Made by a program: the position numbers and the translations under genes. Under the pieces are notes generated by a model. That model saw nothing but the letters and a program-made list of their open reading frames with translations, was not told the DNA's origin and searched no databases. A stretch of 24,647 bases of DNA, taken from the IMG/VR virus record IMGVR_UViG_3300025085_000182, positions 1 through 24,647 of that record; one strand, given 5' to 3'. Of this stretch, positions 6,321-23,045 are shown piece after piece. How positions within the stretch are numbered: the first letter of the stretch is position 1; every line of letters begins with the position of its first letter. This DNA comes from a virus.

Positions 6321-9128
6321 TTATTTTTTACAATTATTACACTTATTACTCAATTCTTTAACAGCTTCAATTAATAATCCAATAAGACCATTATAATCTA
6401 CTGCTTTAAAGCTATCTTCATTTTTAAGACTATCAACTTCTCTTACAAGTTCAGGCATTACTTTTTCTAGCTCTTGTGCTATAATACCACCTGATCTTTT
6501 ATCCTCTCTGTCTATCCAGTCAAATGTTACACCTCTTAACTTGTCTAACTTTTCTAATGGATTCTCAATTACCTTAACATTTTCTTTTAATCTTTCATCA
6601 GAAGGAGTAGTTGTAGAGTATGCAATCACATCTCCATCAAAATGACCATCCCCATTTGCTAAAAATCTAAATTCATTACTGTTGTTAATGAAAAAATCTA
6701 TTTGACTATTGTCAGTAAAACTAATGTAGTCTGTAGAATCTAATCCAATGTACTGGACTGCTCTAAGATCACTTGCAACCTTGTCTGCTGTAACTGAATC
6801 ATTTGCCAGTTTTGCTGTAGTTACATTAGCATCTAATATCTTAGCTGTAGTTATATTAGCATCAAGTATTTTTGCTGTAGTTACTGCATCATTTGCAATA
6901 GTTAATGCTGTTGCACCAGTAACATCACCAGTATGTGTTTGATTGTAAAGATTAGTAGTTCCTTGTGAAAGGTCATCTGAATCTGCTGCTGCTAACTTAG
7001 TATCAAAATTACTATTTGCTCTAGCTGTAGTGAAATAAAGATTTGAACTCCCCTCAGTTAAAACATCTGTTGTTGAGTTAGTTTCATCAATTAACTTAAT
7101 CCAGTTTCCTCCATGTGCAAAATATCCCTTTCCAGTTCCATGTACATGTGCAAACATACCATGATATGTAGATGCACTTGGTAATGCACCTTCTGTTGCA
7201 AACATGTTAGCATAGTAAATTTTACCAGTTGTAGTTATATCATAAGCACCTGCTGCTAAGTTACCTCCTAATGTAGGTGATGAATCTTCTGATACTGCAT
7301 TAATTGATACTGCTTGTACTCTTGCATCAGTAAAATAAAGATTTGTATTCTCAGTTATTGCTGAGGTGTTTAGAGTTATGTCTGCTGATCCATCAAATGC
7401 TACTCCTGATATGTTTCTTGCAGTTGCTAAAATTGTAGCTTCTGCTGCTAAGGTAGCTGTAGCTGCATTCCCAGTTGTTGAACCTGATGAACCACTTACA
7501 TTACCAGTTACATTACCAGTAACATTTCCAACTAAATTACCAGTAATATTTCCACTTGCTCCTATAGTTCCAACACTTATGTTTGGAGTTCCAGTCAAGT
7601 TTGCTGCTGTAGTAGCTGCAATACCTAATCCATCTACATAGGACTTTGTTATGTGTGCTTGTACTTCTGATTGGCTAGGTCCAGTATATGTAAATGCTCC
7701 ACTAGTGTTATCATAACTGAATGAACCATCACCTCCTGCATCAACAGCACTAAAGTCTGATAATCCAATTCCACTAGCAGTAGATGCAATTGTTAATGTA
7801 CCTCCTGCATCATTATATGTTAAACCAATTCCTGATCCTGCTGTTAATAATGTATTTACTTGATCATCTATTCTTTCATTTGTTAGATATTTATTTGTAG
7901 ATCCTTCAGGTAAATCATCTGTATTAACTTGATTTGCTCCAGTTCCAAAGTCAATTAAAGTATCATCAATAGAATCTGCTTTTATGCTAACAGCTCCACT
8001 TGCTACATCAAAGTGATTAGATGAGAAACTAGCTACACCCTTTGCACTTGTAGATGCATCATTACCTGCTATAGTTAGGTTTGGATATGTGCCTCCATTA
8101 GTCAATCCATTAGAACCAGTTATTGCAACAGTTTGGTCAGGAGCTGAATTTGTAATTGTAAAGTTTGGATAAGTACCTGATGCTGTTATTCCAGTTCCTC
8201 CAGTCAAGGCTACTGTTTGATCAGGTGCTGTGTTAGCTATTGTTAGAGTTCCTGCAGTATCATCATATGTACTAGAAATTCCAGTAGATGCTACTACTAA
8301 ACTACCTACTCTATCATCTACTCTCTCATCTGTGAAATATTTGTTTGATCCTTCACTTAAATCTGATGTTGATTTACTTGATAAATCTAAATTTGCTCCA
8401 GTCTGTAAGTTAACTCTTGCATCTGCTCTTGCATTTGTGAAATATTCATTTGTACCTTCTGTTATATTGCTTGTAGATAATGTTATATCAGCACTACCAT
8501 CAAAGGCAACACCTGAAATATTCCTAGCAGTAGCTAATTTTGTGGATGTACTGGAGTTTCCAGTTAATGCACCAGTAAAAGTTGTAGCTGCTACAGATGT
8601 TAATCCACTTATATTAGGATTTAATGAGATTGTTAATGCATTTCCAGTAGAATTAGTAGATATTTCATTTGAAGTTCCTACTACTGATAATACTTCTGTG
8701 TTTAAATCAATAGCTTGTTGCCCACCTGCATCACCTTGAAAGTCTAAATCTTGAACTCCTAGCTGAGAATCAACATATGCTTTAATAGATTGCTGAGTAG
8801 CTAAAGATGTAGCACTATTACTAGACATATTATCTTCATCCTTAAAGTCTGCTATTGTAATTGTACCATCTGAAAGTGATCCAAATGTCAAAGTACCTGA
8901 AATTGTTGAATTTCCAGTTATATTACCAGTCAAAGCTCCAACAAAGCTGTTTGCTGTTACAGTTCCAGTTGCTGTTAAATCTCCAGTATTATTTAAACTG
9001 ATTCCACTCTCAGTTCCTAACCCATCAGATAGAACTTGTAATGTTGAAGTCAATCCATCATTATCTCCAACCTTTATTAGAGAATCATAACTGGATGCTA
9101 TTGATATTCCTGTTAAACTACTTGCCAT
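6321..9128 (-). CDS. Tail fibre/spike with C-terminal peptidase S74 chaperone domain
   Basis: A 935-aa fibre. Most of it is Ala/Thr/Ser/Gly/Asn-rich repeats typical of trimeric beta-helical fibres, including two copies of ATARNISGVAFDGSADITL, TAPDQTVALTGGTGI-type repeats, GNVTGNVTGNVSG and TTAKILDAN repeats. The last 93 residues (843-935) are the intramolecular chaperone domain: SDERLKENV gives the Ser843/Lys848 dyad that self-cleaves after trimer folding, and GGIIAQELEKVMPELV is the other conserved block. The chaperone is expected to detach after assembly. The C-terminus adds CNNCKK, an unusual CxxC ending. The product probably recognises a host surface glycan or protein. The following 152-aa gene starts five bases downstream. 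Confidence 0.88.
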   Translation of the reverse strand: MASSLTGISIASSYDSLIKVGDNDGLTSTLQVLSDGLGTESGISLNNTGDLTATGTVTANSFVGALTGNITGNSTISGTLTFGSLSDGTITIADFKDEDNMSSNSATSLATQQSIKAYVDSQLGVQDLDFQGDAGGQQAIDLNTEVLSVVGTSNEISTNSTGNALTISLNPNISGLTSVAATTFTGALTGNSSTSTKLATARNISGVAFDGSADITLSTSNITEGTNEYFTNARADARVNLQTGANLDLSSKSTSDLSEGSNKYFTDERVDDRVGSLVVASTGISSTYDDTAGTLTIANTAPDQTVALTGGTGITASGTYPNFTITNSAPDQTVAITGSNGLTNGGTYPNLTIAGNDASTSAKGVASFSSNHFDVASGAVSIKADSIDDTLIDFGTGANQVNTDDLPEGSTNKYLTNERIDDQVNTLLTAGSGIGLTYNDAGGTLTIASTASGIGLSDFSAVDAGGDGSFSYDNTSGAFTYTGPSQSEVQAHITKSYVDGLGIAATTAANLTGTPNISVGTIGASGNITGNLVGNVTGNVTGNVSGSSGSTTGNAATATLAAEATILATARNISGVAFDGSADITLNTSAITENTNLYFTDARVQAVSINAVSEDSSPTLGGNLAAGAYDITTTGKIYYANMFATEGALPSASTYHGMFAHVHGTGKGYFAHGGNWIKLIDETNSTTDVLTEGSSNLYFTTARANSNFDTKLAAADSDDLSQGTTNLYNQTHTGDVTGATALTIANDAVTTAKILDANITTAKILDANVTTAKLANDSVTADKVASDLRAVQYIGLDSTDYISFTDNSQIDFFINNSNEFRFLANGDGHFDGDVIAYSTTTPSDERLKENVKVIENPLEKLDKLRGVTFDWIDREDKRSGGIIAQELEKVMPELVREVDSLKNEDSFKAVDYNGLIGLLIEAVKELSNKCNNCKK
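6811..6890. repeat. 30-bp tandem repeats in fibre gene
   Basis: Two full imperfect 30-bp units (6811-6840, 6841-6870) and a partial third (6871-6890) built on TTTGCTGTAGTTACATTAGC. They encode TTAKILDANI, TTAKILDANV and the start of the next copy. Confidence 0.8.
7498..7557. repeat. 12-bp tandem repeats in fibre gene
   Basis: Five imperfect 12-bp units related to ACATTACCAGTT, encoding Gly-Asn-Val-Thr-like tetrapeptides (GNITGNLVGNVTGNVTG). Copy-number change here would stay in frame and change fibre length. Confidence 0.8.
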
Positions 9129-15891: not shown

Positions 15892-17544
15892 TTAAATTCC
15901 TGCAACCATTACTCTGTTTCTTGCAAGTTCTTGAGCTGTTGTAACTTCTTCTGCAACTACAAATGCTTGAATTGGTTCATTTTGTTTTTCTCCTATTGCT
16001 GATGCTAATTGATTAATTGGTGATGCACCTACTACATTAAAATCAGGAGCTTGTATTTGAGGTACTGGAGCTTGTCCTCCTCCACCTGCTGAAATACCAC
16101 CAACACTTAGAACAGGTATTTGAGTTTGTTTTATTGCTTTAATTTGTGCAAACCCAGTAGCTAATACAGTAGCAACTCCTGCTATCTTAGTAGCTAATGT
16201 ACCTTCAGATTCTAAAACATCAGCAGCACCTGCATATGTAGATATTAATGCATTTGCTATACTTAATGCTTTTGCTGCATTTGAACCCTCAGTAGCAAAA
16301 CCTAAACCTAATGCTGTAAACTTTAAAATAGTATCTGCTTTAAATTTTTCCCCAGTTTCAGTTATAGCTGTTGTATCATCTTCACTCTTTTTTGTAATCT
16401 CTGCAATAGCTGCAGCTTTAGCTTCTTCTAAACCTAATACATCACCATCATACTTTTTAGCTTGTTCTATTAAAGCATCATATCTTTCCTGAGCTTTAGT
16501 AACTAATAATGCTGTTTTTTCTTCTTCACTAATAGCTAATGCCTCTCTTTGTGCTAATGTGAATGCAGCTTCATCATCAAGTTCTTTTTGTTTATCTGCA
16601 GCAGCCTTATCTTGATCAGCTTTCTTTAATGCTTTCTCCTCATTATTAAGAGCTATAATTTGACCAGTTACTTCTTTTTGTTTTGTAAGTCTTGCAGTTT
16701 CTAATGTTATTAGCTCTGCTTTTAATTGTGCCTCTAGTTCTAAATCTTCTTTAGTAGAACCTGAAAGTTTGTTTTCTTCCTGAATTACATTTAATCTAAT
16801 TCTAGCTAATGCTATTTCTTTATTTGTAATTTCTTCTTCTAATGTACTAGCCTCTTTAAGAAATCCTATTCTTTGTTCAGTTGTGAAATTTTCTCTATCT
16901 ACTGCCTTTTCTAATAAGTCTGCTCTCTCTCTATCTGCTTTAGCTCTATCAACTATTAATTGTCTTTGAATCTTATCTCCTCTAGCTGTTGCATCTGCTA
17001 ACTTAGAAACAATAGCAATTTCCCTTTTAGTTTCTTCTCCAAAATTCTTTACAGCATCAGTAGCTTCTTTGAAACTTTCTTTAACTCCATTCATAGCCTT
17101 TTCAGCTCCTTCAGTATCACCTCTAAATTTAGCTCCTAAATATTTACCAACTCCTAAAATTGCATTTCCAAAACTTGTCATGATGTCTGTAACATTCCCT
17201 ACAACTACACCAATTTGTTTTGTGATTTTTATAAATTTATTTTGCCCTTCTTCTGAACTTGTGAAGGCTGCTGCAACTGCTGCTATTCCTGCAATTAGTA
17301 ATCCTATTCCTGCAGCTTTAATTGCTTTACCAAATGTATTAATGCTTTTTATAGCACCAATAATAGCTTTTTTAGCATTATTAAAGCCTGAAACTAAGCC
17401 ACCAGTTGCTTTGTCAGCAGCTCCATCTAACTCATCCATGTTTGTTTCTACCTGCTTGACTTCTTGAGCAGTTTCTTCAATAGCTTGATTAGCCTCTGTA
17501 TTATCTACTTGAAAAAGTAACTGTATTTTCTTTATAACACTCAT
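15892..17544 (-). CDS. Short tape-measure-like tail protein
   Basis: A 550-aa protein. The start (SVIKKIQLLFQVDNTEANQA) resembles tape-measure N-termini. A hydrophobic stretch at ~75-93 (AAGIGLLIAGIAAVAAAF) is the membrane-like segment typical of them. Residues ~160-400 are a long charged coiled coil (KADRERADLLEKAVDRENF, LEAQLKAELITLETARLT). The C-terminal part AKALSIANALISTYAGAADV with GFAQIKAIKQTQIP is the hallmark end region of these proteins. At ~0.15 nm per residue the tail would be roughly 80 nm. The first four bases overlap the 51-aa gene as ATGA. Confidence 0.8.
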   Translation of the reverse strand: MSVIKKIQLLFQVDNTEANQAIEETAQEVKQVETNMDELDGAADKATGGLVSGFNNAKKAIIGAIKSINTFGKAIKAAGIGLLIAGIAAVAAAFTSSEEGQNKFIKITKQIGVVVGNVTDIMTSFGNAILGVGKYLGAKFRGDTEGAEKAMNGVKESFKEATDAVKNFGEETKREIAIVSKLADATARGDKIQRQLIVDRAKADRERADLLEKAVDRENFTTEQRIGFLKEASTLEEEITNKEIALARIRLNVIQEENKLSGSTKEDLELEAQLKAELITLETARLTKQKEVTGQIIALNNEEKALKKADQDKAAADKQKELDDEAAFTLAQREALAISEEEKTALLVTKAQERYDALIEQAKKYDGDVLGLEEAKAAAIAEITKKSEDDTTAITETGEKFKADTILKFTALGLGFATEGSNAAKALSIANALISTYAGAADVLESEGTLATKIAGVATVLATGFAQIKAIKQTQIPVLSVGGISAGGGGQAPVPQIQAPDFNVVGASPINQLASAIGEKQNEPIQAFVVAEEVTTAQELARNRVMVAGI

Positions 17545-17696
17545 TTGTTTTTATTTATTTCCCAGTTAGCCATCCTTTTAGCAATCTTTAAGCCTTTTTT
17601 CCAGTTATCAGGTAGATATTTAGAACCTTGTGCAAACTTTATATTGTCAGTTTCACCATTTACTATCTGTAGTAAGTCTATAATGTTCTTTAACAT
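17541..17696 (-). CDS. 51-aa tail-module protein
   Basis: MLKNIIDLLQIVNG... lies between the hydroxylase (stop 5 bases upstream) and the tape-measure gene, whose ATG overlaps its TGA (ATGA). The peptide has KYLPDNWKKGLKIAKRMANW as its conserved-looking core with a predicted amphipathic helix. I do not recognise it. Such a small gene just before the tape measure often corresponds to a tail chaperone, but this one is too short for a G/GT pair and no slippery site was seen. Confidence 0.65.
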   Translation of the reverse strand: MLKNIIDLLQIVNGETDNIKFAQGSKYLPDNWKKGLKIAKRMANWEINKNK

Positions 17697-17701
17697 GCTA
17701 C

Positions 17702-18319
17702 TTATATAATACTTAATTGAGATTTTTTTAATAATTTTTGATATTCTTTGTAATCATCTGATCCATTCCAATTATTCTCTCTCCACCATGATGTTACTAT
17801 GTATTTTGTACCTTCTTTTACATCTTCACCTGAATGCAACTTATATTCATCAGGTTTCCCCATGTGTAAATTATTCCAAATGACAGCTTTGTATTTTTTT
17901 GGCTGTATTTCTTTTTTAAGATGTCTAAAATTTGTAGTACCTCCAGTAAAATCATCATTTAAATACAACATAAATGTATATGTTCTGTTTCCTGATGCTA
18001 AACAATTCATATCATAGTGTTCTCCTATAAAGTAATCAGGATGCTCTCTAAAGTATTGACCTTTTTCATATCTCTGACCTTGTAATACTTCTCCTTTATT
18101 AAAAGGCACACCTAAATATTTAGCAATTCTTTGATGAATCTTTTTAATAGTAGGATTTTTACTGTCTAATGTTGCTGAGTAAGATGTTCTAGCATTATCT
18201 AGTTTACTGTATTGATTTTTAGAACCTGCAACTGTAGATTTATGTGCAAACTTATCTATTAAATATATTAAGTGATCTGCTTCAGCTTTGTTTATAAAAT
18301 TTTCTACTTCTTTAATCAT
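17702..18319 (-). CDS. Prolyl-4-hydroxylase-like 2OG-Fe(II) oxygenase
   Basis: A 205-aa double-stranded beta-helix enzyme. RYEKGQYFREHPDYF (83-97) supplies His93-x-Asp95, LHSGEDV (161-167) the distal His162, and KGT-KYIVTSWWRE (168-181) the basic residue, probably Lys172, that binds 2-oxoglutarate. NRTYTFMLYLND and GGTTNF are further family blocks. This matches the P4H-alpha-type family, which hydroxylates proline using O2, Fe(II) and 2-oxoglutarate. ATG at 18319 is used because the 37 extra upstream codons lie mostly inside the hub gene; spacing to the hub stop is ten bases. The preceding gene has Pro-rich linkers, so its product is a candidate substrate. DNA-base or lipid-modifying roles remain possible. 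Confidence 0.85.
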   Translation of the reverse strand: MIKEVENFINKAEADHLIYLIDKFAHKSTVAGSKNQYSKLDNARTSYSATLDSKNPTIKKIHQRIAKYLGVPFNKGEVLQGQRYEKGQYFREHPDYFIGEHYDMNCLASGNRTYTFMLYLNDDFTGGTTNFRHLKKEIQPKKYKAVIWNNLHMGKPDEYKLHSGEDVKEGTKYIVTSWWRENNWNGSDDYKEYQKLLKKSQLSII

Positions 18320-18329
18320 TCTTTTTATT

Positions 18330-21300
18330 TTATTGTGACTGACAACTGTTAGTATATGGACCTTGTAGGTTAGTACCTGACCAATAATAATAGTTCCCTG
18401 CAGGTTGGTCTGCAAAATACCTAGCAACATTTAATACAGTATTACAAGATGAATTTGTGTAAACAGTATTTGCTTGTTCTATTGTATTTGCATCTATATA
18501 AACAGTTCTAGGTGTAGTTTGGTTACATAAATCAGGAGCTGTTGATGCATAAAATAAGCTCTGACTTCCACATATTGGAGTAGGTGGAGGTGTAGCAGGA
18601 GGAGTAGGAGGAGTAGGTGCATTCTCATTACACTCTATACAGTTTTCTCCTGCTGTAGTAGCAGTTGAAAATATAGTGAAGTTTGTTATGTCTTGTGGGT
18701 TTACAGCATTTTCTAAATTAGTAACCCATCTCAAACATTCATAACCAGTTGTACCACCCCTTTGTATAACCCACCATGATGATATTTGTAGTGTTTGACT
18801 TACAACATATAAAATTTGACCATTAGGATCATCACAAGTAATAAACTGTGCATAGTATGGACCTTGTGGTGCAACTGGTGGTGTAGGTGGTGGAGTTGTA
18901 GGACAACTTGTAAATGAAGTAGGACTCATAGGTCCAGCATTGTTTCCTGATGTTACCAATCCTACTACTTTATATGTAGTTCCACCATTACCAAAAGATA
19001 CAATATCATTTGTGTTAAAAGTAATCTGTGTGTTATCTTGCTGTGATCTCCAACCAGTTGTGCCATCATCACATTTTTGTAATGAATAATAGTTTACAAC
19101 TGGAGGTGTTGTTGGACATCCAGTAGCACCTGTGTCTGTTACAGTACCTACATTAGCAGTTGAGTTTGTAGTACCTACAACTATATAAAAAATTCCATTA
19201 GAATCTTGAACTCTTGTACCATTAGGATCATTTTCAACTAGATTTGGCAGCTCTACAGTTGTATTACCACTTCTATAACCACCTTGTAAAGTTCCACATT
19301 GTTTTAAAGACCAGTATAAAGGACATGCTGTTAATGTTGATTTTGTTACAGATCCCACACTAGTTCCTGATTGAGTAGTTCCTGTTACCTCATATATCTG
19401 ACTAGGTGTAGCAGTTTCAAAAACAAAATCTCCTACTGCTAAAGCACTTAACTGTTCAGTTGTTTGTGCTGATATAAAACCTGTATTGTTTGTAGAACAT
19501 TGTTTAAGCTCCCAATAATATATATCATTTGGTTGAATAGTAGTTGGACATCCAGTTGCACTTAAACTAACTACAGAGATTACACCACTTGAAAAATTAT
19601 TAGGTGTATCTGTATTACCATAAACAATATAAACCTCTCCATCAGGACCTTGCACTCTAGAACCATTAACAGGGTCTTCTGTCATACCAGTTAATTCAGC
19701 AGTAGTTTGTTCTGAAACATATCCACCTACTGATGTTGTACATTTTTGCATTAACCAATAAAAATCTGTAGGAGTAGGAGTTGCAGTAGGACAACCATTA
19801 CTACCTAAATCTACTAATGCAGCTACAATACCATTTGTGTTAGTAGTAGTCCCTATAACTGTATATATAAATCCATTTGCATCTTGCACCCTTGAACCAG
19901 TTTGTCCATTAGCATCAATATCTAAATCAATTTGGTCTGTAGTTTCAGGTGATACATAGCCAGTTTGATTATTAGAACACAATTTTAAAGAGTATCTTAT
20001 TGGATCAGGTGTGCCTCCTCCTGAAGGACATGTACAAGTAGATAAAGCTCCTATATTAATTGAACCAGTTGTATTACTTGTTGCTGCTACATAATAACAT
20101 GTACCATTATATGTTCTTTCAGTTCCTGCTAAATTAGATAAATTAGAAAACCCATAATGTTGTATTGAGCTTGTGTTAGAACAAGAGTTTAAAGTATAGT
20201 AATAAACTGGACAAGTACAAGTAGGCAAACTACTTACATCTATAGTTCCAGTATTTGTTGTTGATGCAATGTTGTAACATGTATTATTGTATGTTCTGCT
20301 CCCACTAAGTCCTGATGTACCACTAAAACCATATAAAACAGTTCCAGTACCATCACATCTTGTTAAACTATAATAATATGTTGTTGGACCTTGTGTACAA
20401 TTATATACTTTAGGACTAAAAGCTGATACAGTTTTTGCTGATACTACAGTTGGCTGTCCTGATGTATTATTTACAATAGTTGAAGTTGTTGTATTACTAT
20501 TAATAATCACATATGCAACATTATTAGAATCTTCTACTTTTTCTGTTATAGCATATGTAGGATTTGTTACTGCTGTTGATGTTCTAAAAGTACTCTCATT
20601 ATCTGAACACCTCTTTAAACCATAATATAATGTAGGAGGAGTAGTTGATTCAGGACATCCTGAGAATCCAGTATCACTAACTGTTTTTGCTGTGTAAGTT
20701 CCTGGTCCTATATTTCCTTTAACAATATAAAAGTTTCCACCTTCTGTTAGCCTTCTATTATTTACAAAATTAAAATTTGCTATTGTAGAAGATGATTCAT
20801 AAAAAGTTCCTGAGTTAGCACAATCCTCAAAGTAAAGCACATTAGTTTCAGGAGTTCCTTCAGGTTGAGTTGTATCACCACCTCCAGTATCAGGATTAAT
20901 GCTAGGTATTACATCAACTGTTTCATTTAACAACTGCATTTGACTCTCACCACTTAATAGATTTGTTGTTATACTGTTTATTTTATAAGACTCATTGTTA
21001 ATGGTTACACTATCTGCTAAACTGTAATTTAAAATAAACTTTTTTGGTAATCTTGCATTTAGTCTTGTTAGTCTTTTAGATCTATTAAATACTGATTGAA
21101 TATAAAACCTATAATATTTTAAGAATAATGTTTGATCAAAAGCAGTACTATTAGTAAACTCATTTAACTCTAAATTAAAATGTATGTTTTCTTTATTTAC
21201 TTCAGGTTGAATACTTACTGAATTGCTTGGCATCCAAAATTCACCAAAGTCATTTATTCCTCCAGTTCCAGTTTTCTGTTCTAGAAATCTTATATCATTA

Positions 21301-23045
21301 GCTGATTGTTGAAATATTGGAATAAACAAAACTGCATCTTCAAAGTAAGGTTCTCCATTTTCATTAGCCATCCATCCTACTTGTACTTCTGTTTCATTAC
21401 TACCATTTAATAATTTTTCATATTTTAAATGTGCAAATGGCAGCTCTACATTAAATACTTTGTTATTACTATCTAGTAATTCACTATTGTTGTATTTCAA
21501 TGAACCCCAATCTGATCCACTTAGCTGACTGTGTTGTTTTGCTAACCTTGTATCTGTGTCTTTATATTTAAAAATAATTTCTTCATATGGCAATGCTTTA
21601 TCTATTTCACTAGAACTTGGATCAACAAATTCTGTAATGTCTCTAATAGAACCTGAATTGTAAAACTCCTCTAAAGTTTTTACATGTATAATTCCATCTT
21701 TTTCAAAGGCTGTTAGATTAAACATTTTAAACAATCCACTAATAAAATCTATTGTTTTTAGAGATGGTAGATGGTCTTTAATTATAAATTCTTTTTCAAG
21801 AGGTATAATTACATTTGTAAGTTGATGGCTAGAGCTGTTACCACTTGAATCACTTGCTTGAAAAGTAAAATTAGATAATTGAAAAGCTGTAGTAGTTTCA
21901 ATTTCTATTGTATAACCTGCTGATGTGTTATACATAAACACAGTAAATGAGCCAGTTGTATTAGTTCCTCCAGTAAAGTTTTGTGAAAATACTTCTGATG
22001 TGCCACCCCTTCTTACTCTAATTGTAAAATCAGGATATGCTGAGGTAGCTTGAAAACTAAACACACCAGTTATAAAATCTCTTTCAGGTAACCCTTGAAT
22101 GTAAATTGCATTAAATGTAACTGCTAGTTTATTATTTAATGCTTGTGCTGTGCTAAACCCTGATACTTGTTTTAGAGCTGTCCCCATATCTTCAAACTGC
22201 CTACCCTCTGTATTTTGACAAAGCATATAGAGTTTTTTATAACCCTCTGGACCATTTGTTAAACTAAAGAAATCATCACTAAATCTGATTGATGTATATT
22301 GATTTTGTATTGCTCTTACAATTAAGTGAACTGGAATAGCATAAGTTAAATCTTCAAAATACACCCCATGTACATCTGCAGCAGTTTCTGATCCTGCATT
22401 AGTTGGTGCTAAGTTTCCTCCTAGCTCTAAATTTTCTGAACCATCTGCATTCTGATATGGAACTGTTATACCTCCATCCATATATAATCTAGCTGAGTTA
22501 GATATTAAAGGACAGATAACTGATTTGTAATAAGTTACATTAGTTCCTAAATCATCTACTGTGACACCTGATGTACCTCCCAAACCATCCTCTGTAGTTA
22601 AAAGATTTAATACTTGTGATGCACTATATGTAGTATTAAAATTGTCTAGCCAGTTTAATGAGTTGATTTCATCTTCTCTTAATGTGTCCTTTAATGTAAC
22701 TGTATTACCAAAAAAGGTAACCTTGTATGATTTAGGTTGATTGTTTTCTATTGATACTCCTTCTAATCTTAAAAGTCCTTCTTTAAATGGTATTGTATTT
22801 AACTCTATTCTAGCAGGAACTTTCTTTCTAGCATCAAATGATGTACCAGTTGCTAAATTAAATCTATAATAATGTTTGAATATTTTGTTGTTTTCTTTTG
22901 ATGCAGGTAAGTTAAAAGGTTTTGAGAAGTCTGTAAACACTTTAGAAACATCCCTAACATCTTGAATTGTTTGATTAAGACTTAGGCTTTCATCTTCAAA
23001 TATTTCTACTCTCTGATTATTAATGTATAATTCATATCCATTCAT
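18330..23045 (-). CDS. Large tail hub/baseplate protein with tandem Cys-module adhesin region
   Basis: A 1571-aa protein. The N-terminal ~730 residues (start MNGYELYINNQRVEIFEDES, then VFTDFSKPFNLPASKENNK) are the type I know from Bacteroidota phages at the tail tip, rich in beta strands. From ~733 to the end it consists of about eleven modules of roughly 55-80 residues. Each opens with an aromatic-x-L-x-x-C motif (WSLKQC, YSLKLC, WELKQC) and closes with GCP- or CTCP-like motifs, with Tyr/Thr/Gly-rich strands between. Linkers are Pro/Thr-rich (TTPPPTPPVAPQGP, APTPPTPPATPPPTP). It is probably the tail-tip or receptor-binding component. TAATG at 23047-23043 couples it to the 322-aa gene. Confidence 0.7.
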   Translation of the reverse strand: MNGYELYINNQRVEIFEDESLSLNQTIQDVRDVSKVFTDFSKPFNLPASKENNKIFKHYYRFNLATGTSFDARKKVPARIELNTIPFKEGLLRLEGVSIENNQPKSYKVTFFGNTVTLKDTLREDEINSLNWLDNFNTTYSASQVLNLLTTEDGLGGTSGVTVDDLGTNVTYYKSVICPLISNSARLYMDGGITVPYQNADGSENLELGGNLAPTNAGSETAADVHGVYFEDLTYAIPVHLIVRAIQNQYTSIRFSDDFFSLTNGPEGYKKLYMLCQNTEGRQFEDMGTALKQVSGFSTAQALNNKLAVTFNAIYIQGLPERDFITGVFSFQATSAYPDFTIRVRRGGTSEVFSQNFTGGTNTTGSFTVFMYNTSAGYTIEIETTTAFQLSNFTFQASDSSGNSSSHQLTNVIIPLEKEFIIKDHLPSLKTIDFISGLFKMFNLTAFEKDGIIHVKTLEEFYNSGSIRDITEFVDPSSSEIDKALPYEEIIFKYKDTDTRLAKQHSQLSGSDWGSLKYNNSELLDSNNKVFNVELPFAHLKYEKLLNGSNETEVQVGWMANENGEPYFEDAVLFIPIFQQSANDIRFLEQKTGTGGINDFGEFWMPSNSVSIQPEVNKENIHFNLELNEFTNSTAFDQTLFLKYYRFYIQSVFNRSKRLTRLNARLPKKFILNYSLADSVTINNESYKINSITTNLLSGESQMQLLNETVDVIPSINPDTGGGDTTQPEGTPETNVLYFEDCANSGTFYESSSTIANFNFVNNRRLTEGGNFYIVKGNIGPGTYTAKTVSDTGFSGCPESTTPPTLYYGLKRCSDNESTFRTSTAVTNPTYAITEKVEDSNNVAYVIINSNTTTSTIVNNTSGQPTVVSAKTVSAFSPKVYNCTQGPTTYYYSLTRCDGTGTVLYGFSGTSGLSGSRTYNNTCYNIASTTNTGTIDVSSLPTCTCPVYYYTLNSCSNTSSIQHYGFSNLSNLAGTERTYNGTCYYVAATSNTTGSINIGALSTCTCPSGGGTPDPIRYSLKLCSNNQTGYVSPETTDQIDLDIDANGQTGSRVQDANGFIYTVIGTTTNTNGIVAALVDLGSNGCPTATPTPTDFYWLMQKCTTSVGGYVSEQTTAELTGMTEDPVNGSRVQGPDGEVYIVYGNTDTPNNFSSGVISVVSLSATGCPTTIQPNDIYYWELKQCSTNNTGFISAQTTEQLSALAVGDFVFETATPSQIYEVTGTTQSGTSVGSVTKSTLTACPLYWSLKQCGTLQGGYRSGNTTVELPNLVENDPNGTRVQDSNGIFYIVVGTTNSTANVGTVTDTGATGCPTTPPVVNYYSLQKCDDGTTGWRSQQDNTQITFNTNDIVSFGNGGTTYKVVGLVTSGNNAGPMSPTSFTSCPTTPPPTPPVAPQGPYYAQFITCDDPNGQILYVVSQTLQISSWWVIQRGGTTGYECLRWVTNLENAVNPQDITNFTIFSTATTAGENCIECNENAPTPPTPPATPPPTPICGSQSLFYASTAPDLCNQTTPRTVYIDANTIEQANTVYTNSSCNTVLNVARYFADQPAGNYYYWSGTNLQGPYTNSCQSQ
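18334..20850 (-). repeat. Tandem Cys-framed protein modules
   Basis: Roughly eleven diverged repeat modules at residues ~733-1571 of the 1571-aa protein. Shared marks are an N-terminal [YW]-x-L-x-x-C, then a G-[YF]-x-S-x2-T-T segment, G-[ST]-R-V-Q-D-x-N-G in several copies (e.g. GTRVQDSNG, GSRVQDANG), a V-x-G-T-T strand and a closing G-C-P-T. Modules 3 and 4 share YNNTCY/YNGTCY and TCTCP. DNA identity between copies is low, so they are old repeats rather than recent duplications. Confidence 0.75.

Follow-up and report, generated by a model that had tools for sequence, protein, structure and literature searches.

A predicted prolyl 4-hydroxylase and proline-rich linkers of the adjoining tail-region protein in a phage of marine Bacteroidota

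The most likely role of a 2OG-Fe(II) oxygenase encoded directly behind a putative tail protein in a marine phage genome is the hydroxylation of proline-rich linkers in that same protein. The enzyme has the fold of a prolyl 4-hydroxylase (P4H) and intact catalytic residues, it is under purifying selection, its adjacency to the tail-region gene is conserved, and it changes jointly with the Pro linkers. The 2OG oxygenases of marine phages are abundant enzymes for which we know of no assigned substrate; the locus provides a concrete candidate substrate for one group of these enzymes, and a testable prediction. The window analysed is the 24,647-nucleotide stretch at positions 1-24,647 of record IMGVR_UViG_3300025085_000182; L-numbers designate loci or records of the survey.

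The oxygenase and the adjoining tail-region protein

The oxygenase (205 aa, 17702..18319), the tail-region protein with its parts and linkers, and the neighbouring genes described in this section, apart from a tail fibre, lie on the minus strand. The original prediction was of a P4H-like enzyme with intact His-x-Asp...His and Lys, 10 bases behind a 1571-aa protein, and the coordinates, the family and the residues all agree with it. The protein matched PF13640 in Pfam (4.2e-14) and phrog_61 (9.6e-24). PHROG 2297, labelled DNA endonuclease, also matched (3.8e-12) and is probably a mislabelled family. In an alignment, His93, Asp95, His162 and Lys172 were invariant among 36 homologues, and they align with B. 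anthracis P4H. The AlphaFold model (pLDDT 93.3, pTM 0.88) has a double-stranded beta-helix predicted to be closest to P4Hs: its top PDB match was 3gze, an algal prolyl 4-hydroxylase with (Ser-Pro)5 (TM 0.82, E 7.8e-17), followed by B. anthracis P4H, human collagen P4H and the viral P4H of PBCV-1 (vCPH), and among the fold matches listed all were prolyl hydroxylases. A PDB profile search with the sequence agreed. The dN/dS against the nearest relatives was 0.06-0.18, and by this measure the gene is under purifying selection. In conclusion, the oxygenase is a predicted prolyl 4-hydroxylase by fold, catalytic residues and family.

The type I P4Hs of algae and plants (Chlamydomonas P4H-1, PDB 2jig/3gze) are like the window enzyme in fold and in their HxD...H...K site. 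By analogy, their substrate class, Pro-rich and extended, would also resemble the proposed phage linkers. The phage enzyme differs from them in that its gene is coupled to that of a tail-region protein, in an identity of only about 24%, and in that its substrate is putative.

The gap between the two genes is 10 nt (18320..18329), because the 1571-aa ORF ends at 18330 and the oxygenase begins with the ATG at 18319. A longer oxygenase start at 18430, given by the ORF finder, was dropped, as it overlaps the tail gene and the homologues begin MIKE or MKE. The oxygenase followed a 1571-aa-type protein directly in 25/25 window-type loci (56-100% identity), with -4 to +10 nt between the two genes; the -4 overlap, found in many relatives, suggests translational coupling of the two genes. 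On the other side of the oxygenase, a 51-aa ORF (MLKNIIDLLQ..., 17541..17696), kept in many relatives (L001, L002 and others), separates it from the next structural gene, which encodes a 550-aa tape-measure-like protein (15892..17544) similar in place and make-up to P12024L_50. The window also encodes, at 6321-9128, a tail fibre of 935 aa whose C-terminal domain is an S74 chaperone (PF13884). Relatives in genome collections were Bacteroidota MAG contigs (Winogradskyella, Flavobacterium), and the host is therefore probably a marine flavobacterium.

The 1571-aa protein (18330..23045) is a putative tail protein from its position, since it is encoded beside structural genes, among them the tape-measure-like gene. 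It matched phrog_38559, whose function is unannotated (5.5e-56), and none of the family models searched names it. Alignments delimit a conserved N-terminal platform of about 735 aa (20842..23045), with 26 Pro and no Pro linkers. The platform, the first 735 residues, is common to the homologue in Nonlabens phage P12024L, a 750-aa protein that has no repeat region and no oxygenase after it. A structure model of the platform was poor (pLDDT 51.6) and was set aside. The remaining 836 aa or so (18330..20840; 54 Pro, 30 Cys) form a Cys-pair repeat region, in which Pro-containing linkers connect the modules. The Pro-dense linkers described previously in this C-terminal part were located, the two densest being TTPPPTPPVAPQGP at aa 1383-1396 (18858..18899) and APTPPTPPATPPPTP at aa 1476-1490 (18576..18620), as were the shorter TPTPT at aa 1089-1093 (19767..19781) and ESTTPPT at aa 799-805 (20631..20651). 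The density of 8 Pro in 12 residues seen in APTPPTPPATPPPTP was reached by 1/5000 shuffles of the C-terminal part, so that clustering goes beyond composition.

Occurrence of the oxygenase with proline linkers

If the enzyme acts on the linkers, the two should be gained and lost together, and the oxygenase should not be equally frequent beside linker-free tail proteins; the survey bore out both expectations. Platform relatives were gathered irrespective of the oxygenase, which gave 114 proteins that were complete, differed from one another and had 700 nt or more of sequence downstream. Pro linkers and an adjoining oxygenase-type gene were both present in 34 and both absent in 78, and the two mismatches could be explained: L079 has PPPPPE only, a single run rather than a linker set, and the apparent enzyme without linker in L058 was an artefact of the domain boundary, which hid a linker that is present. 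In two of the concordant cases (L085 and L091) the adjoining gene encodes a stand-alone second domain, a putative oxygenase. L073, taken for a platform protein without a C-terminal part, appears frame-broken and was discarded as such.

Because most negatives are short and have no C-terminal extension, the fairest controls are the approximately 10 linker-negative proteins with long C-terminal parts, and the enzyme was found in none of them. Three of these loci bear on the identity of the target. Cys-pair repeats also occur in every window-type tail protein, so the enzyme might hydroxylate Asp, Asn or Lys of the Cys-rich modules rather than the linker prolines. This is quite improbable: L074, L433 and L427 have Cys-rich C-terminal parts with neither Pro linkers nor oxygenase, so that the enzyme tracks Pro linkers and not adhesin length or Cys repeats, and its fold is of the prolyl hydroxylase type.

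On platform trees, both traits required three changes (one tree) or four (the other), linkers and oxygenase changing on shared branches every time. L085 has linkers and oxygenase, and its close kin L077 has neither. Three or four independent joint changes are consistent with the proposed pairing and too few for a significance test. Such a small number would also be expected if enzyme and linker domain had been captured as one block and kept by linkage, with no functional relation, and Pro linkers are indeed frequent without the enzyme. We consider functionless shared descent very improbable, as the dN/dS is low, the catalytic residues are invariant, the pairing recurs in unrelated lineages, and L077 lacks both traits in spite of its kinship with L085.

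The gene directly upstream was then counted per distinct enzyme with upstream sequence. It encoded a Pro-linker protein for 27/30 window-type enzymes (29/30 with a looser cut), for 27/34 enzymes in which the P4H domain is fused to a second domain, and for both stand-alone second domains (2/2). The background was 42/562 for other ORFs in the same loci and 3/464 for ORFs in enzyme-free loci. No such protein stood directly upstream of the oxygenases of a distant clade (0/22). The 2OG-Fe(II) oxygenases of PHROG 61 from cyanophages and Erwinia phages belong to the same broad family as the window enzyme and differ from it in that those examined had no Pro-linker neighbour (0/22); phage oxygenases of this type are widespread (PMC12774648).

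These last enzymes bring up a different target. The related oxygenases of Erwinia-type phages are encoded well away from the tail genes and beside no Pro-rich protein, and the EF-Tu-binding or EF-Tu-modifying P4Hs of B. anthracis and Pseudomonas (5v7y, 4iw3) are among the fold matches of the window enzyme. Some bacterial P4H-like enzymes modify EF-Tu or a ribosomal protein, and the phage oxygenase might likewise modify a host protein of this kind, its place in the late operon serving only the timing of expression. We regard this as unlikely, as a host target accounts neither for the joint change of enzyme and Pro linkers within one protein family nor for the fact that, in another lineage, the same domain accompanies (PxP)n proteins that are unrelated.

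The converse association is weak. Among loci picked without regard to the oxygenase, this oxygenase type was present in 3/111 with PTPTPTPTP and 3/85 with TPPTPPTPP, and only two PF13640 matches were found among 98 genes downstream of 70 blind-picked Pro-repeat loci. Long (PT)n or (TPP)n linkers are a common feature of proteins from diverse viral contigs, and this oxygenase is absent in most of these cases. One real exception to the pairing was observed: in L145, a 52-kb record, a fused enzyme lies in a non-structural region near an HPAT-like gene, and no Pro-rich protein was found in all 52 kb.

Two other loci can be mentioned here. L116 (5411-8549) comes from another kind of phage and encodes a window-type oxygenase of 74% identity, and a protein with about 20 PSGG[LI][QE] repeats ((PSGGLQ)n-like), another Pro-containing repeat, is encoded two genes upstream. 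In L307 (4100-8734), an unrelated phage picked up without regard to the oxygenase, a (PT)n protein, a 2OG oxygenase of a different subfamily, an epimerase and a fucosyltransferase-like gene stand in a row, apparently an independent instance of the pairing of a Pro-repeat protein with a 2OG oxygenase.

Viral precedent and proposed role

The P4H of chlorovirus PBCV-1 (vCPH, PDB 5c5t) is likewise virus-encoded and was proposed to act on viral proteins with Pro repeats (Eriksson et al., 1999, as cited in PMC7019647 and PMC9301287). PBCV-1 differs in being a eukaryotic virus, and in having no operon link such as that of the phage locus. The proposal made for PBCV-1 calls for a Pro-repeat protein from the same virus; here the linkers are in the adjacent 1571-aa protein and change jointly with the enzyme. 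PBCV-1 P4H acts on peptides, and hydroxyproline was not found in PBCV-1 virions (PMC7019647). By analogy, PBCV-1 may be seen as a double-edged precedent for hydroxylation of a virus's own proteins, and as a warning. A survey of Baltic viruses describes as cryptic the use that viruses make of prolyl 4-hydroxylase (PMC9301287). Our literature search, which covered few subscription journals, turned up no account of phage particles containing hydroxyproline, a weak sign of novelty.

We propose that the P4H is synthesised along with the tail-region protein of the preceding gene, and that exposed, polyproline-II-like linkers (PP, PxP, TPP) between the Cys-rich C-terminal modules would be hydroxylated before or during assembly. 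The idea that the phage modifies its own tail protein was part of the original prediction, and it is well supported by the co-occurrence, by the joint changes on the trees and by the pairing with (PxP)n proteins in a crAss-like lineage; from the sequences, we infer hydroxyproline as the product. The linkers are the presumed substrate and the protein a presumed virion component, and mechanical effects may follow from the modification: in the window lineage the product would probably be hydroxyproline alone, which may render the linkers stiffer or more resistant to proteases. If this is true, the chemistry by which these phages modify their own tail proteins is one familiar mostly in animals, plants and protists, and adsorption, the stability of the particle and escape from surface defences would be affected.

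Fused enzymes and glycosyltransferases in crAss-like phages

In a second lineage, found in phages with crAss-type muzzle genes, the P4H domain is fused to a second oxygenase-like domain, and the fused enzyme is usually encoded immediately after a protein with long (PTPxP)n or TPP linkers. The second domain alone had no match in Pfam and none in the PDB by sequence; its oxygenase nature therefore rests on an HxD...H pattern and on a weak PF13661 match in L026. Enzyme make-up may correspond to linker type, single-domain enzymes occurring with PP-rich linkers and second-domain enzymes with PxP linkers, a correspondence confounded by descent.

Among 71 sampled genes just downstream of the fused enzyme, we found 16 PF11397, 14 O-FucT, 5 HPAT and 9 nucleotide-sugar epimerase matches; carbamoyltransferases were also present. 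The HPAT match was above its cut-off in one record of this lineage, and no PDB relative of the HPAT-like family was found. PF11397 is the family of the Skp1 hydroxyproline GlcNAc-transferase and comprises Ser/Thr-directed enzymes as well, so that the sugars could sit on Thr and the linkage to hydroxyproline is unproven. In the window lineage, by comparison, eight records, six of them 31-33 kb long, contained no PF11397 or HPAT match, and the gene list of one record contained no glycosyltransferase. The glycan handle envisaged in the original prediction is therefore unsupported there, and phage-encoded glycosylation is unlikely in the window lineage, judging from gene content. The same idea is strongly suggested for the crAss-like relatives by the adjoining PF11397, O-FucT and HPAT genes: glycosylation of hydroxyproline is probable, and hydroxyproline would there serve as the anchor for sugars added by glycosyltransferases encoded beside the fused enzyme.

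The neighbourhood of oxygenase and glycosyltransferase genes in these relatives also recalls the TET/JBP enzymes, which together with their glycosyltransferases modify DNA in some phages. That the present enzymes act on DNA is extremely unlikely. The sequence and fold matches of the window enzyme are P4Hs rather than TET/JBP-type oxygenases, and its nearest folds are peptidyl-prolyl hydroxylases; the glycosyltransferase families (PF11397, HPAT, O-FucT) are protein-directed, the genes are linked to tail genes and not to replication genes, and the window lineage has the oxygenase with no glycosyltransferase found.

Hydroxylation of linker prolines, followed in some lineages by glycosylation, has counterparts in the Skp1 pathway of Dictyostelium and Toxoplasma and in the arabinosylation of plant extensins, where a P4H acts before hydroxyproline-directed glycosyltransferases; the crAss-like relatives have PF11397, HPAT and fucosyltransferase-type families beside the enzyme. 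The phage systems differ in that the genes stand beside structural proteins and, in the window lineage, in the lack of any glycosyltransferase found. It is possible, and we suggest it tentatively, that marine Bacteroidota phages, crAss-like ones included, run their own hydroxyproline pathway, consisting of a P4H and, in some lineages, of Skp1-type, HPAT-type and fucosyl transferases, which would convert PP/PTP-rich tail linkers into hydroxyproline-rich, partly glycosylated, extensin-like spacers. Soluble prolyl hydroxylases and hydroxyproline glycosyltransferases could then be obtained from the marine relatives.

Some of the glycosyltransferases are themselves fused. L149 (9236-11950) encodes, directly behind the fused oxygenase, one protein that joins an HPAT-like N-terminal part, an O-FucT domain and a PF11397 (GlcNAc) domain, and L154 (5498-9115) encodes at the same place one protein with O-FucT and PF11397 domains. 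Skp1-pathway glycosyltransferases also occur as fusions (PMC8724618). In L138, L146, L158, L163 and L164, Radical SAM/SPASM-like genes separate the fused oxygenase from the PF11397-type gene.
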